Shown here piece after piece: positions 22,316 to 28,679 of a DNA stretch of 34,760 bases. Below the pieces are notes generated by a model that did not search any database, was not told where the DNA came from, and worked only from the letters and a program-made list of their open reading frames with translations. Where the stretch lies: assembly GCA_021324435.1 (NCBI GenBank), contig JAJPIZ010000018.1, positions 1 to 34,760 of the forward strand. Direction: 5' to 3'. This stretch comes from Anaerolineae bacterium (lineage in GTDB: Bacteria > Chloroflexota > Anaerolineae > Anaerolineales > Villigracilaceae). Both the position numbers and the translations under genes were made by a program. Position 1 is the first letter of the stretch. Each line of letters opens with the position of its first letter.

Positions 22316-22329
22316 CTAACACGTGTTAG
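22316..22329 (+). promoter_or_regulatory. LacI-family operator O1
   Basis: CTAACACGTGTTAG is a perfect 14-base palindrome with the central CG typical of LacI-family sites. It occupies the first transcribed bases of the lacI-type gene. The same 12-base core recurs before the sugar ABC operon, which strongly suggests autoregulation and shared control. Confidence 0.8.
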
Positions 22330-22343
22330 CAATCAGACAAAAA

Positions 22344-23372
22344 ATGTCCGCTTCCAAACGCACAACCAGCGTAGATGTCGCCAAACGAGCCGGGGTTTCC
22401 CGGACGACGGTTTCATTCGTCCTGAATAATGTACCTGACGTCAGCATCAGCCCATCAACCCGCCAGCGTGTTTTGGAGGCCGCGAAATCACTCAACTATC
22501 ACCCCGATATGGCCGGCCGAAAACTAGCCAGCGGAAAATCGAATACGATTGGGCTGGTCATTCGCCAGAATCCCGAGCAGGTTTTTGCGGATGCTTTTCT
22601 GCTTCAAGTGGTTCTGGGCGTGGAAGGTGCCGCCGCTGAACGAGGCTTTCATGTATTGCTCAAGCCTGTTGAGCCGGATGATCAGCATGGCTATGCGCGG
22701 CTCATCCACGAAAATTATGTGGATGGAATTCTAGTCTCTGGCCCGCGCGAAGATGATGCCGAGATCATTCGACTCCACAAACAAGGCGTGCCCATCATGT
22801 TGATGGGTCAACTCCCTGACACTGATATTCCCTTCGTAGATATCAACGCAATCGCGGGAGCCGCGGCTGCAGTTTATCATTTGATTGGTCAAGGCCACCG
22901 AAGGATCGCGATGATTACCAACGCCCCTCTAACCTACACATCTGCTCAACAGCGGCGTGATGGTTATCATCAGGCGTTGAAACAAGCCAACCTGGAAATC
23001 CATGATGCCTATCTGCAGGAAGGCAATTACACACCCGCCAGTGGATTTGCGGCCATGACGAGGTTGCTCGAGTTGACTCCGCGACCCACAGCAGTGTTTG
23101 TTGCTAGTGACGTGGTCGCGATGGGCGCGATCCAGGCGATTAAACGCGCTTCGCTTCGCGTCCCGGACGATGTGGCGGTCGTCGGTTTCGACGATGTCCC
23201 CTTGGCTGAATACTATGACCCGCCATTGACCACAATTCGTCTGCCCGCCTACGGTTTGGGTTGGGCGGCAGGAGATCGCCTGGTTCGCATGATCGAAGGA
23301 GATAACCTTGACACGCCAAGGCTTCTCCTTGACTCAGAACTCGTTGTACGGCAGTCAAGTGTAAAAAACTGA
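22344..23372 (+). CDS. LacI-family transcriptional regulator of the sugar locus
   Basis: A 342-residue repressor. The N-terminal helix-turn-helix is [20 protein letters not shown] (about 9-28), followed by the hinge region [16 protein letters not shown] periplasmic-binding-like sugar domain spans 60-340, with typical blocks [38 protein letters not shown] and [12 protein letters not shown]. The ATG at 22344 is taken because it begins just before the HTH; a GTG at 22323 lies inside the operator. Identical operators before itself and before the ABC operon point to sugar-induced release. The ligand is probably the sugar handled by the transporter and TreS. Confidence 0.95.
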
Positions 23373-23413: not shown

Positions 23414-23425
23414 TAACACGTGTTA
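23414..23425 (+). promoter_or_regulatory. LacI-family operator O2 before the sugar ABC operon
   Basis: TAACACGTGTTA repeats exactly the core of the operator at the lacI-type gene. It lies about 105 bases before the binding-protein ATG. A promoter core around it is not clear: TTGCCA at 23374 is one possible -35 box. Confidence 0.75.
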
Positions 23426-23518: not shown

Positions 23519-24856
23519 ATGTTTAAACTATCGAAACTTTTGACGTTGCTCGTGCTGGCCGGTTTGCTCCTCGCGGCTTGCGGACCGCAGGCCACTCCAA
23601 CCGAAGTTATGACTGAGGCGCCAGCCACAGAAGCCTCATCAAGCAGTAGCAGTGCCCCGGCCCAACCCGCAATGTGCATGGGCGCGCAACCGGGTGACCA
23701 ATTGACAGTCATGTACCAGTGGTCTGGCGCGGAGGAAGAATCTTTCAACGCGATTGTCAAGCCCTTGCTGGATGCGTGCGGCATTAAACTTGTCGCTCAA
23801 ACAAATCGCGACATGGCCGTGTTGGACACCGCGGTCAAGAGCACGCCGCCCGACGTGTTGTTCTGGCCGGACCTGCGCCCGTTGAAACTATATTCCGACA
23901 AACTCCTGGCGCTCGATTCGATTGGTGCCGATAAATCCAATTTCGCGTCCTATTGGATGGACATGGGCACAACCAATGGAAAATGGGTTGCCATTCCCGT
24001 GAAAGCAGATGTGAAATCCATTATCTGGTACAGCCCCGCACAATTCCAAGCCTTGGGCTACCAAGTTCCGGCCACATTTGAAGACCTTCAAACCCTCGTT
24101 GACAAGATGGCCGCAGATAATAACGTACCGTGGAGCATGGGTTTCAATAACGGCGGCGCGGCAGATGGTTGGTCTGGGACCGACTTCATTCAGGATATTC
24201 TGCTCGCGACACAGGGCCCGGATTACGTCAACGGAATCCTTTCCGGCAAGGTCGCATATAATGACCAGCCCGTTGTTGACGCCTACACTCTTTACCATAA
24301 ATGGGCATCAGACGCCAAGTACACCGTCGGTGGCGCAGATGGCACGGTCAATACAAAATTCCTGGATGCGATCCATAAAGTGTTCTCCAACCCGCCGGAG
24401 GCTATGATGGTTAAACAGTCCGGCTTTGCTGGTGGTGAGATTGTCAAGGAGTTCCCCAATCTAAAGTATGGAACCGACTTTGACTTCTTTGAATTCCCCG
24501 GCGTGAAGGGCGTGCAAGGCGGCGCGGACTTTATGTATGCGTTCGGCAACTCGCCTGCCGCTCAGGCCTTGGTCGCTTATTTGACAAGCAAGGATGGCGG
24601 CAAAGCCTGGGCCGCCGCAGGATTCGGCCTCTCGCCTAACAGTGGCGCGAACGGCAATTATACGGACCCGCAGGTTGCAAAACTGGGCGATATTCTTGCC
24701 AATGCAAGCGGATTCACCTTCGACATCGGCGATGGTCTCGGTGATCCCTTCGCCACCGCCGAGTTCAAAGGCGTCGTAGACATTGTCCAGGGCGCAGATA
24801 TCAAGGCTACTCTTGATACAATCGCACAGGCTCAAACAGAGACGCTGAACAAGTAA
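23519..24856 (+). CDS. Sugar ABC transporter substrate-binding lipoprotein
   Basis: An extracytoplasmic binding protein of 445 residues, MalE/UgpB-like (family 1). The signal peptide ends in the lipobox LLAAC with lipid-bearing Cys21, followed by a Ser/Thr/Ala-rich linker. The binding fold begins near residue 60 (QLTVMYQWSGAEEESFNAIV), with PDVLFWPDLRP, a hinge near PWSMGFNNGG, and an FWP/DGWSGTDF aromatic set suited to sugars. Two other cysteines (53, 87) could form a disulfide. GGAGG precedes the ATG. A strong intercistronic hairpin follows before the permease genes. The sugar is probably a gluco-disaccharide, judged from treS downstream. Confidence 0.93.
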   Translation: MFKLSKLLTLLVLAGLLLAACGPQATPTEVMTEAPATEASSSSSSAPAQPAMCMGAQPGDQLTVMYQWSGAEEESFNAIVKPLLDACGIKLVAQTNRDMAVLDTAVKSTPPDVLFWPDLRPLKLYSDKLLALDSIGADKSNFASYWMDMGTTNGKWVAIPVKADVKSIIWYSPAQFQALGYQVPATFEDLQTLVDKMAADNNVPWSMGFNNGGAADGWSGTDFIQDILLATQGPDYVNGILSGKVAYNDQPVVDAYTLYHKWASDAKYTVGGADGTVNTKFLDAIHKVFSNPPEAMMVKQSGFAGGEIVKEFPNLKYGTDFDFFEFPGVKGVQGGADFMYAFGNSPAAQALVAYLTSKDGGKAWAAAGFGLSPNSGANGNYTDPQVAKLGDILANASGFTFDIGDGLGDPFATAEFKGVVDIVQGADIKATLDTIAQAQTETLNK

Positions 24857-24872
24857 GCACGATCTGCATAAG

Positions 24873-24904
24873 AAGCTGGGACATCCTCCCCGATGTCCCA
24901 GCTT
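24873..24904 (+). other. Intercistronic hairpin between binding protein and permease genes
   Basis: AAGCTGGGACATC and GATGTCCCAGCTT form a perfect 13-base stem with a six-base loop and no U tract. At this place in sugar ABC operons such hairpins stabilise the binding-protein mRNA and lower permease expression (known from mal-type operons). That role is inferred here. Confidence 0.75.
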
Positions 24905-24931
24905 AATCCTTGGCGAGGTAAGGAGACATCT

Positions 24932-25843
24932 ATGGTCCCCAAGATTATGAAACAGGGCCGTTTGGCACCGTGGCTTTATTTATTTCCCGCACTTCTCATC
25001 ATGGGCTTATACATCATTTACCCAACCATAGGCACAATACGGCTGAGTCTTCTGAACTACAACAGCACGGCCTCTGCCGCGACGACCTGCACAGCCAACC
25101 AACCTTGCTGGGGAATTTTCGAGAATTACCGCTATGCCCTGACCAATTCAGAGATGTTGACCGCCTTGCGAAACAACGCTTTGTGGTTGCTAGTCATGGT
25201 GCCGGCGACAGTTATCATTGGTCTATTGTTCGCATTGCTTGCTGATCGCGTCCGATACGAGAGTTTAGCCAAGGCGGTGATCTTCATGCCTGTGGCAATA
25301 TCCTTTATCGGAGCAGGCATTATCTGGAGATTTGTGTACTACATCGAGACCGGTACCGGCGCACAGATCGGTTTGCTGGATGCGATCATCAGCGGCTTTG
25401 GAGGCAAGCCCGTTGCCTGGCTAAGTAATCCCGCGACAAACAACTTCGCCTTGATGGCCGTCGGTGTTTGGCTCTGGGCCGGTTTCTGCATGACCATCCT
25501 GTCCGCGGCAATCAAGGGTGTGTCCGCAGAAATGCTCGAGGCCGCCCGTGTGGATGGAGCCACCGAGTTTCAAGTATTTTGGAACATCATGCTCCCCACC
25601 ATCATGCCGTCCATTGTTGTCGTGACCACCACGATGTTCATTATCATCCTGAAGATTTTTGATGTCGTCTTCGTGATGACAGGCGGAAATTTTGGGACCG
25701 AAGTCATTGCCAACCGCATGTTCAACCTGATCGTCACCAACGCCGGGCGATCCACGGCTATTGCCGTGGTTTTGATCGCGCTGACTATCCCCATTATGAT
25801 TTTCAACGTGGATCGTTTCCGAAAAGAGGAGATGGCCCGATGA
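24932..25843 (+). CDS. Sugar ABC transporter permease (MalF/UgpA-like)
   Basis: An integral membrane subunit of 303 residues with about six helices. The start at 24932 is set by AAGGAG six bases upstream. The cytoplasmic EAA loop that docks the ATPase is at 203-222 (EAARVDGATEFQ, then NIMLP). The first outside loop contains a short Ser/Ala/Thr insertion with Cys53 and Cys59 (TTCTANQPCW), which could form a disulfide. It overlaps the next permease by ATGA. No ATPase gene is in the operon; a shared MsmK-type ATPase elsewhere is likely. Confidence 0.94.
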   Translation: MVPKIMKQGRLAPWLYLFPALLIMGLYIIYPTIGTIRLSLLNYNSTASAATTCTANQPCWGIFENYRYALTNSEMLTALRNNALWLLVMVPATVIIGLLFALLADRVRYESLAKAVIFMPVAISFIGAGIIWRFVYYIETGTGAQIGLLDAIISGFGGKPVAWLSNPATNNFALMAVGVWLWAGFCMTILSAAIKGVSAEMLEAARVDGATEFQVFWNIMLPTIMPSIVVVTTTMFIIILKIFDVVFVMTGGNFGTEVIANRMFNLIVTNAGRSTAIAVVLIALTIPIMIFNVDRFRKEEMAR

Positions 25844-27051
25844 ATGCTTTTCAGAGCCTGAACAAAATCTTTCGCAGACTGCCGCTTCACCTTGCCATCA
25901 TCGTCATGTGCCTGTTGTGGATTATTCCGACTCTCGGCCTGTTTGTCACTTCGTTTCGCTCCCGCGAAGCGGTCCGCACTTCCGGTTGGTGGTCGGCCTT
26001 CCTCCCGCAACCTAAAGTTGGCCTGCCGGAATATACACAATACTGCGCATCCTGCCACGGCGCGGATGGCAGGACGATCCAGACCGCCGACTTGTCCGAC
26101 CCCGATCTCGTTAACCAATTCCCGCGCGCCGCGAATTTGCTGGTCATGCTTAAACAGCCTGTGAACGGCAGCTCACATTTGATCAACCCGCCTCTTCCCG
26201 CGGATGCAAAGACCGCCCTCAGCACACTGGCGCCAATCATCACATACATGCAGACGCTGGGAGGGACAAATACGCAGAACCAACTCACCCTCAACAACTA
26301 TGTTGATTCTCTGGTTGGATATAAAGGCACGCAGGATTATTCAACGGATTGCCAGCAAAAGGTACCCAGCACGCTGGCAAAATACAAATGCAATATCAGT
26401 GACTTGCTCAACCCTGAAGGCATGGGCGCGGCTTTCATTAATACAGTTCTGGTTTCCGTTCCAGCCACCCTCCTGGTTATCATCTTCGCGGCGCTGGCAG
26501 CCTATGCCTTTGCCTGGCTGGATTTTCCCGGCCGCCATTGGCTTTTCGCATTATTGGTCGGTTTGCAAGTGATTCCTTTGCAAATGTCACTGGTTCCCAT
26601 TGCACAGTTATACGTCAAACTGGGTTTGCAAAGTTCCTTCCTCGGCATTTGGCTTTTCCACGTCGGCTTCGGCCTGCCTTACGCGATTTACTTGATTCGC
26701 AACTTCATCGGCGGCTTGCCGCGCGATGTCTTCGAGTCTGCTTATTTGGACGGAGCCAGCCATTGGACAGCCTTCCGCCGTTTGGCACTGCCATTGGCAA
26801 TGCCGGCTATCGGCGCGCTTGGCATCTTCCAATTCATTTGGGTTTGGAACGATTTCCTCGTTGCCAAAATCTTCCTCAACACTCACCCGGTGCTGACCGT
26901 GCAGATCACCAACCTGCTCGACCCGCGCGGCGGCAACTGGCACATTCTCACCGGCGCCGCATTCCTTTCGTTCATTATTCCAATGGTGGTTTTCTTCGCT
27001 TTTCAACGCTCCTTTGTGCGCGGCTTGCTTGCCGGCTCAGTCAAAGGATAG
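25840..27051 (+). CDS. Sugar ABC permease (MalG-like) with inserted cytochrome c-like domain
   Basis: A 403-residue permease, against about 275-285 for the family. Residues 1-55 hold helix 1 (about 17-38) and the usual loop start SREAVRTSGWW. Residues about 62-188 are extra and contain CASCH at 69-73, a c-type heme attachment motif. After that the standard permease resumes with GMGAAFINTVLVSVPATLLV, and the EAA loop is at 299-318 (ESAYLDGASHWT, then RLALP). Helix 1 runs outward from a basic N-terminus, so the insert faces outside the cell, where c-type heme is attached. Start overlaps the previous permease (ATGA). Permease identity is certain; heme binding is inferred from the motif. Confidence 0.93.
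   Translation: MNAFQSLNKIFRRLPLHLAIIVMCLLWIIPTLGLFVTSFRSREAVRTSGWWSAFLPQPKVGLPEYTQYCASCHGADGRTIQTADLSDPDLVNQFPRAANLLVMLKQPVNGSSHLINPPLPADAKTALSTLAPIITYMQTLGGTNTQNQLTLNNYVDSLVGYKGTQDYSTDCQQKVPSTLAKYKCNISDLLNPEGMGAAFINTVLVSVPATLLVIIFAALAAYAFAWLDFPGRHWLFALLVGLQVIPLQMSLVPIAQLYVKLGLQSSFLGIWLFHVGFGLPYAIYLIRNFIGGLPRDVFESAYLDGASHWTAFRRLALPLAMPAIGALGIFQFIWVWNDFLVAKIFLNTHPVLTVQITNLLDPRGGNWHILTGAAFLSFIIPMVVFFAFQRSFVRGLLAGSVKG
26023..26403 (+). other. Cytochrome c-like insert within the MalG-type permease
   Basis: Residues about 62-188 of the permease. Order: EYTQYCASCHGADG with the CxxCH at 26044-26058, a helical stretch FPRAANLLVMLKQPVNG, then INPPLP in the place where cytochromes c usually have the axial-Met loop. 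A closing helix LSTLAPIITYMQTLG follows, and then a linker with Cys171 and Cys184. The layout follows small class I cytochromes c. The usual axial methionine is missing at its expected position; His113 or Met103 could substitute. The frame is unbroken on both sides. Confidence 0.75.
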
Positions 27052-27068
27052 GAACTTAAGAGTAAGTG

Positions 27069-28679
27069 ATGAGTCCTCCTGATTGGTATAAAAATGCCAT
27101 CTTCTATGAAGTATATGTGAGGGCCTTTCGTGACAGCCATGGCGATGGCCACGGTGATCTGCAGGGCCTCACCCAAAAACTCGATTATCTCAAAGACCTC
27201 GGCGTAGATTGTCTGTGGTTGATGCCGATCTACCCCTCCCCGCTCAAGGATGACGGCTACGACATCGCCGACTATTACGGGATTCATCCGGACTACGGCA
27301 CCCTCGACGATTTCAAATCACTATTGAAAGCGGCCCATGCCCGCGGCATCCGCATCATCACGGACCTCGTGCTGAATCACACCTCCGACCAGCATCCCTG
27401 GTTCCAGGCCTCCCGCCGCGAAAAAACCTCGCGATATCGCGACTATTACGTGTGGAGTGACACCGACAAAAAATATTCCGATGCGCGCATCATCTTCGTG
27501 GATACCGAACGCTCCAACTGGACCTGGGATTCTGCCGCCGGTCAATATTATTGGCACCGCTTCTATTCATCACAGCCCGATCTCAACTATGACAATCCAG
27601 CCGTCCGCGCCGAAATGCTGAATGTGATGAAGTTCTGGCTTGACCTCGGCGTAGACGGATTCCGCGCTGACGCGGTTCCTTATCTGTTTGAACGCGAAGG
27701 CACCAACTGCGAGAACCTGGCGGAGACCCACAGCTACCTCAAAGAATTGAGGCGCTACATTGACAAGCATTATCCAGATCGCATTCTGTTGTGCGAAGCC
27801 AATCAATGGCCGCGTGATGTCCGTGCATATTTTGGCGAGGACGATGAATTTCACATGGCGTTTCACTTCCCGCTCATGCCGCGCGTCTTTATGTCCATCC
27901 GCCGCGGAGACTCTGAGCCTATTCATTGGGCGCTCGAACAGACCCCGCCCATTCCCCCGAACTCGCAGTGGTGCACCTTCCTTCGAAATCACGATGAGCT
28001 GACTCTCGAAATGGTCAGCGAAGAAGATCGGCAATGGATGTGGAAGGAGTATGCACCTGATCCACGCATGCGCTTGAATTTGGGAATTCGGCGGCGGCTT
28101 GCGCCTCTACTCGACAATGATCAACGAAAAATCGAGCTGGCTTACTCCCTGCTCTTCACGCTTCCCGGCTCGCCGATCATTTATTACGGCGATGAAATCG
28201 GCATGGGCGACAATATCTCATTGCACGATCGCAACGGCGTTCGCACACCTATGCAATGGGATGACTCGGCCAACGCAGGCTTCAGCGAGGCAAAAGACAT
28301 CTTCGCCCCGGTGATTGATAATTCCATGTTTAGACTTCGCGACGTTAATGTAGCTTCGCAAAAGGCAAAACCAAATTCGCTTCTGCAAACTATCCAAAAG
28401 ATGATTGCCGTACGAAAAAAACACTCGGCATTGGGATATGGGTACTTGACCTGGCATAACCTCAACACAAGAGCCGTCGCGGCTTATTCACGCACCCATA
28501 AAAAGGATCGTCTGTTCGTACTTAACAATCTAAGTGACAGCAAACAGACTGTTCACATGGACGTTGCTGGTCGCTCTCTCACAGACATTCTAAGAAATAA
28601 AATTTTCCCTGTGACAAACGATCAACTTCAAATCGAATTGGAACCGTACGAATATCTCTGGCTTGAGACGACAAAATAG
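27069..28679 (+). CDS. treS: Trehalose synthase (maltose alpha-D-glucosyltransferase), GH13
   Basis: Interconverts maltose and trehalose. The protein has 536 residues from the ATG at 27069; a GTG one codon earlier is the alternative. The GH13 barrel is complete, with TreS signatures [34 protein letters not shown] and NGVRTPMQW. The catalytic residues are nucleophile Asp201 ([10 protein letters not shown]), acid/base Glu243 (LLCEANQW) and Asp309 ([12 protein letters not shown]). A short C-terminal beta domain follows, with no fused maltokinase. It lies 17 bases after the permease gene and ends the LacI-type operon, so the imported sugar is probably trehalose or maltose. Other alpha-glucosidase activities are less likely. 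Confidence 0.9.

Follow-up and report, generated by a model that had tools for sequence, protein, structure and literature searches.

The window analyzed here is a 34,760-nucleotide stretch of DNA from an Anaerolineae bacterium of the phylum Chloroflexota, and it lies on contig 14 of a 3.11 Mb genome that is 97% complete. Genes on its forward strand encode a LacI-family regulator, a solute-binding lipoprotein, two permeases, and a GH13 enzyme. The loop that follows the first transmembrane helix of the second permease almost certainly contains a cytochrome-type domain. Homologs with the same insert are referred to here as carriers, and relatives that lack it as insert-less; loci are numbered with L and genomes with G. 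The features of the region are as follows.

22323-23372, forward strand: LacI-family regulator (NCBIfam; a neighbor in carrier loci)
23519-24856, forward strand (ORF opens at 23420): solute-binding lipoprotein (lipobox-like LAAC; weak NCBIfam sugar-binding similarity)
24893-25843, forward strand: MalF-type partner permease (4-base overlap with the MalG gene)
25840-27051, forward strand: MalG-type permease with inserted c-type cytochrome domain (403 aa ORF)
25885-25953, forward strand: transmembrane helix 1, aa 16-38 (predicted model; MalG-type structural match)
26008-26280, forward strand: inserted cytochrome c domain, aa 57-147 (Pfam, PDB profile, fold prediction, carrier alignment)
26044-26058, forward strand: putative heme c attachment motif CASCH, aa 69-73 (C, C and H identical in 51/51 carriers)
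26176-26178, forward strand: H113, invariant distal histidine and candidate sixth heme ligand (51/51 carriers)
26179-26181, forward strand: L114, column of the class-I distal Met (alignment to cytochrome cy; Met in 28/51 carriers)
26281-26433, forward strand: rest of the loop, aa 148-198, with the Cys pair C171/C184, part of the permease (kept in 7/7 insert-less clade relatives)
26434-27048, forward strand: permease core, aa 199-403 (BPD_transp_1; PF00528 over 206-394)
27066-28679, forward strand: TreS-type maltose alpha-D-glucosyltransferase, GH13 (TIGR02456, 832.7 bits, cut-off 678.35)

Both sequence and predicted structure identify the product of 25840-27051 as a MalG-type sugar ABC importer permease. 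The 403-residue protein matches PF00528 (BPD_transp_1) over residues 206-394 with 46.4 bits against a cut-off of 26.4. A Foldseek search with the whole-permease model, which has a mean pLDDT of 63.7 and is poor in the membrane part, returned chain B of LpqY-SugABC, which we take to be SugB, as the closest match (E = 1.4e-5), followed by MalG (4.8e-4). The trehalose importer LpqY-SugABC (PDB 8hpm, 7caf, and 7cae, chain B) shares the permease fold, and a related cargo is suggested by the TreS gene adjoining the heme permease gene; MalG of MalFGK2 (PDB 4ki0, 3puv, 9bcr) belongs to the same permease family, and the operon logic of a binding protein with two permeases is the same. The heme permease has 403 residues, in contrast to 270-272 in the SugB chain and 286-293 in the matched MalG chains. 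To our knowledge SugB has no heme domain, and we know of no cytochrome domain in the first loop of MalG. No second heme permease was seen among the 26 other PF00528 matches in the window's genome; 25 of these fall in 14 regions in which no ORF of at least 200 aa has a CxxCH motif, and the remaining match is the MalF of the same operon, likewise without CxxCH.

The gene arrangement is shared by many carriers. Across 32 carrier loci, some of which end at contig edges, the LacI regulator, binding protein, MalF, MalG-cytochrome, and GH13 genes are all found together on 23, with the binding protein present on 30, MalF on 31, and GH13 on 27. A tandem pair of binding-protein genes is located upstream of the heme permease in L018 (1937-4273). 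The binding protein of the window likely starts at 23519, and it has no Pfam match above cut-off (best PF13531, with 12.6 of 25 bits), suggesting a diverged lineage. The imported sugar is probably trehalose or maltose, as the TreS gene sits in the operon.

The inserted domain and its predicted heme site

The initial annotation placed a CxxCH motif in the MalG-type frame between helix 1 and the FINTVLVS helix, and this has been confirmed, as CASCH (aa 69-73) lies in frame at that position. It also described an insert of about 120 residues. The extra stretch is indeed about that long when compared with plain relatives such as L046, but only about 90 residues (aa 57-147) are cytochrome. Residues 148-198 are assigned to the permease because the insert-less relatives keep them, and on the same grounds both an extension of the cytochrome to aa 188 and a heme-related function for C171/C184 were rejected. 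Helix 1 of MalG-type permeases runs to the outside of the cell. The structural match to these permeases is consistent with such a course for helix 1 and supports the extracytoplasmic location first proposed for the cytochrome domain.

The C171/C184 pair has counterparts elsewhere in the importer, with one conserved extracytoplasmic Cys pair in each part: C171/C184 in MalG, C66/C72 in MalF, and C86/C120 in the binding protein (numbered from the ORF start at 23420). The MalF pair is kept in 32 of 32 rows and that of the binding protein in 29 of 30. These pairs appear to be independent of the heme domain, since relatives without the insert retain them (7/7 in the clade for MalG; 3/3 examined for both MalF and the binding protein).

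The domain was recognized as a cytochrome by family-level evidence. The Pfam matches anticipated by the initial annotation were obtained, but for the window protein both fall below the curated cut-offs (PF13442, 16.6 bits against 27; PF00034, 14.4 bits against 21.3). Within the family, 32 of the 33 members match PF13442 with an E-value no higher than 0.1 (lowest 1.7e-7), and the PF13442 cut-off is passed by three relatives that were inspected by position (G064, 30.5 bits; G145, 28.8 bits; G054, 27.4 bits). A profile of the insert searched against the PDB gave a CcoP-cytochrome cy chain as the top match (1.2e-7), followed by other CcoP and bc1 cytochrome subunits; these E-values refer to whole chains, most of which contain several heme domains, and the best single printed stretches have values of 0.04-0.25. 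When the insert was predicted alone from a 33-sequence input, the model had a pLDDT of 90.9 and a pTM of 0.81. Every one of the best 50 of 56 Foldseek matches to this model contains a c-type cytochrome, with weak E-values (best 0.038), as do all 50 matches listed by VIA-align, with Z of at most 6.4; a few of these entries were classified from the entry name. Because of this evidence from the family, the case for a cytochrome is strong despite the weak Pfam score of the window protein. The CxxCH motif, fold, and PF13442/PF00034 similarity are shared with class I c-type cytochromes (CcoP of cbb3 oxidase, the bc1 cytochrome c subunit, cytochrome c6, OmcF, KustC0563). Unlike these proteins, the domain sits within an ABC permease, and the window protein has Leu at the column of the distal Met with an invariant His one position before it.

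Conservation is concentrated at the heme site. The retention of CxxCH among homologs, on which the heme reading had been made to depend, holds throughout: all 51 distinct carriers, of which 18 were added by a class-wide search, have C69, C72, and H73. Together with G74, L100, and H113, these are the only positions of the domain (aa 57-147) that are identical in all carriers, and the probability that the three pre-specified heme residues would all fall within six invariant positions of 93 by chance is 1.5e-4. On average, two carriers share 46% identity over the insert, compared with 78% over the permease core. Among ten close carrier pairs chosen for the comparison, the dN/dS of the insert is 0.08-0.26 in nine (three of them rough, with dS over 2; the tenth pair is saturated at synonymous sites), while that of the core is 0 to 0.07. 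The insert is clearly under purifying selection; it evolves faster than the core yet is clearly constrained, the heme residues most of all.

The domain very probably binds heme covalently. As to the sixth ligand, residue 114, which aligns with a Met of cytochrome cy that is presumably the distal ligand of the class-I cytochrome, is Met in 28 carriers, Leu in 12, Val in 7, Ile in 3, and Thr in 1. The window protein has Leu114 and therefore does not have the class-I distal Met. In the window protein, where Leu occupies the classical Met position, the sixth ligand is probably H113, which alone is invariant, and the heme would then most plausibly be bis-His. In carriers that have both H113 and M114, either side chain could be the ligand. 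With regard to the sugar importer carrying a covalent heme that was originally proposed, the heme site is well supported, while the heme itself and its role are what we infer from sequence and model.

No clear parent cytochrome for the insert was identified among the loci compared within its own genome. L144 comes closest, with a whole-sequence E of 3.3e-6 against a very small set of sequences, and is similar at the attachment end only. The insert also matches L148, a multiheme protein of another Chloroflexota genome with seven CxxCH motifs in frame, mainly at the attachment end.

Distribution and history of the insert

A scan of species genomes with exact short peptides matched 365 loci, of which 80 were kept, and 32 of these 80 have CxxCH at the same place. 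Among the loci kept, every carrier comes from a record whose title gives Chloroflexi, Chloroflexota, or Anaerolineae/-ales/-aceae, and one (L016) is on a record titled chromosome, CP070764.1. The question of whether the architecture recurs across Chloroflexota was answered by a class-wide search of 396 genomes, in which full-length matches were found in 26 genomes (the window's own included) from 13 families, with five further matches without the insert. A phylum search of 400 genomes gave nine full matches, all within the 26 known carriers. Outside Chloroflexota, 396 genomes from the phylum to which L045 belongs gave no match, in a search that had no positive control.

Trees were built without the insert columns, with 61 rows in the first two and 62 in the last. 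The 51 carriers and seven insert-less rows (L040, L041, L043, L124-L127) form one clade relative to L044-L046 and L149, with support of 100/95. The insert-less sisters show 54-64% identity over the shared part and have the same Cys pair, and L040, L041, and L043 have the binding protein followed by the permease as in carriers; unlike the carriers, they have no cytochrome domain. The number of insert changes on the tree is three in the careful trees and four in the quick tree. Under this rooting, the three changes correspond to a single gain followed by two losses, although a third loss may have occurred at a fork that the trees do not resolve. The insert-less copy of G065 (L149), a genome with three PF13442 matches, was considered as a loss in a cytochrome-bearing genome; this was rejected, as the tree places L149, on a long branch, before the gain (100/95).

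The copy in G351 (L150) lacks its 5' part and adjoins another permease, and it was left out of the counts with its insert state unreadable. This stretch (L150, 1239-2009), which is 92% identical to L043 over 222 residues, immediately follows the other permease gene and resembles a gene remnant.

Maturation genes and other cytochromes

Cytochrome c maturation genes, which the initial annotation had proposed to look for, were found. The window's genome has two PF01578 genes, with frames of 700 and 315 aa, that are CcmF- and CcmC-like by size. Similarly, every carrier genome but one (25/26) has PF01578; the one without it, G054, is 73% complete. This is a weak test, as PF01578 is near universal in the set (49/54 genomes, carriers or not). 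Among the seven insert-less clade genomes, PF01578 is absent from G396, G397, and G390 and present in four; G398, G314, and G387 have two PF01578 genes each, CcmF- and CcmC-like by size.

A different pattern is observed for PF13442, the one cytochrome family that was counted here. The window's genome has seven PF13442 matches in six ORFs, and the insert of the window protein is below that threshold. All 26 carrier genomes have PF13442 matches, 18 of them five or more. Positions were checked in the other eight, and five have PF13442 beyond the insert while three (G012, G013, G075) have the insert only. In contrast, PF13442 is found in none of the seven insert-less clade genomes, compared with 326 of 392 class genomes (insert matches included); completeness is 83% and 90% for two of the seven and unstated for three. 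PF13442 besides the insert is thus present in 23/26 carriers and 0/7 insert-less genomes (Fisher p = 2.8e-5, with kinship ignored). Counted as events, this corresponds to two or three independent losses, all in lineages without PF13442. Because four of the seven insert-less genomes keep PF01578, absence of PF13442 is the better correlate of domain loss. The carriers without PF13442 beyond the insert (G012, G013, G075) indicate that this cytochrome pool is not strictly required.

Oxygen respiration was also considered as the shared factor. COX1 is present in the window's genome, in 18 of 26 carriers (weakly, below cut-off, in G149), and in two of the seven insert-less genomes. Its absence from eight carriers and presence in two insert-less genomes leave this idea unsupported.

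Possible roles of the heme

The best explanation for these observations, and still a tentative one, is that the operon encodes an alpha-glucoside importer into which a cytochrome was inserted a single time and whose external, covalent heme couples uptake to redox state. The permease would be the MalG-like member of the pair in a type I ABC importer that takes up trehalose, maltose, or a related alpha-glucoside. Its first extracytoplasmic loop would have acquired the c-type cytochrome domain just once, in an ancestor within the Chloroflexota class. Following export of this loop, the Ccm system would join heme to C69 and C72, with H73 as the proximal ligand and H113 as the most likely sixth ligand in the window protein. 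The heme would then lie on the outside of the membrane, on the docking side for the binding lipoprotein, and may exchange electrons with extracytoplasmic c-type cytochromes. Finally, the redox state of the heme may change docking or gating such that sugar uptake tracks respiratory status. Redox gating of sugar uptake is itself somewhat less likely than not. Redox coupling is nevertheless judged the likeliest role because the losses follow PF13442 and not the maturation genes, and because conservation within the domain is strongest at the heme site. More speculatively, there may be a new class of redox-gated ABC importers in which a covalent outer-face heme senses how reduced the extracytoplasmic cytochromes are and thereby controls how fast sugar is taken up.

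ABC sugar importers rank among the best-studied transporters and are generally described as controlled from inside, through regulatory domains and inhibitor proteins. A covalent heme at the outer face, if present, would provide a direct physical link of nutrient uptake to respiration, and a redox-gated importer, if it exists, would match carbon import to the supply of electron acceptors. The domain is found across 13 families of a single class, and the only members of the clade that lack it come from genomes in which no PF13442 was detected. The initial annotation knew of no characterized case, and likewise no description of a cytochrome domain in an ABC importer permease was found among the matches listed in the literature searched, with most subscription journals outside its scope. 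The permease and the cytochrome are each of known kinds; what was not found described is their union in an ABC importer permease.

Alternatively, the heme may be structural and serve as a folding checkpoint, wherein the domain folds only once heme is attached, so that importer levels depend on a working heme supply and on cytochrome c maturation. The presence of invariant heme residues in a fast-changing remainder (46% identity, against 78% in the core) and of PF01578 in 25/26 carriers is consistent with such a role. However, G398, G314, and G387 keep two PF01578 genes each and have no domain, indicating that maturation alone does not preserve it, and this reading is unlikely.

It is also unlikely that the heme is an electron relay that links external cytochromes to a partner, such as the thiol pairs of the importer or a sugar-oxidizing enzyme, with transport unaffected. 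The conserved extracytoplasmic Cys pairs in MalF, MalG, and the binding protein could be such partners, and the other PF13442 cytochromes in 23/26 carrier genomes could be the external cytochromes. The pairs are also present in insert-less relatives, however, and hence are heme-independent, and no redox enzyme was seen among the window genes that recur at carrier loci.

A third alternative is that the cytochrome fold is kept as a contact surface for the binding protein or for respiratory complexes, with heme bound but its redox chemistry unused. In PMC11414716 and PMC8134467, the P3 'scoop' loop of MalG-type permeases is described as inserting into the binding protein, which is also touched by other external loops of MalG and MalF. 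A first-loop domain would thus be close to the side where binding proteins dock, and the cytochrome domain may itself touch the binding protein. The two to three losses, all without a PF13442 match, suggest instead that cytochrome biology matters, and a purely docking or scaffold function is quite improbable. Lastly, a chance CxxCH, an assembly error, or a decaying insertion is scarcely credible: while the window protein alone is under the Pfam cut-off, the same architecture in 51 distinct carriers, one of them on CP070764.1 (L016), rules out chance and misassembly together with a dN/dS well below 1, and the heme residues are invariant.

Two other sets of CxxCH-containing ORFs were observed. 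At L142 (G000:C29:17000-36500), three ORFs with 9, 10, and 12 CxxCH motifs adjoin cytochrome c maturation genes, hinting at multiheme cytochromes and possibly at extracellular electron transfer. Within the window, an ORF at 775-2907 contains a CHWCH motif, and its product presumably resembles the thioredoxin-like SPATA20/YyaL proteins rather than a cytochrome.
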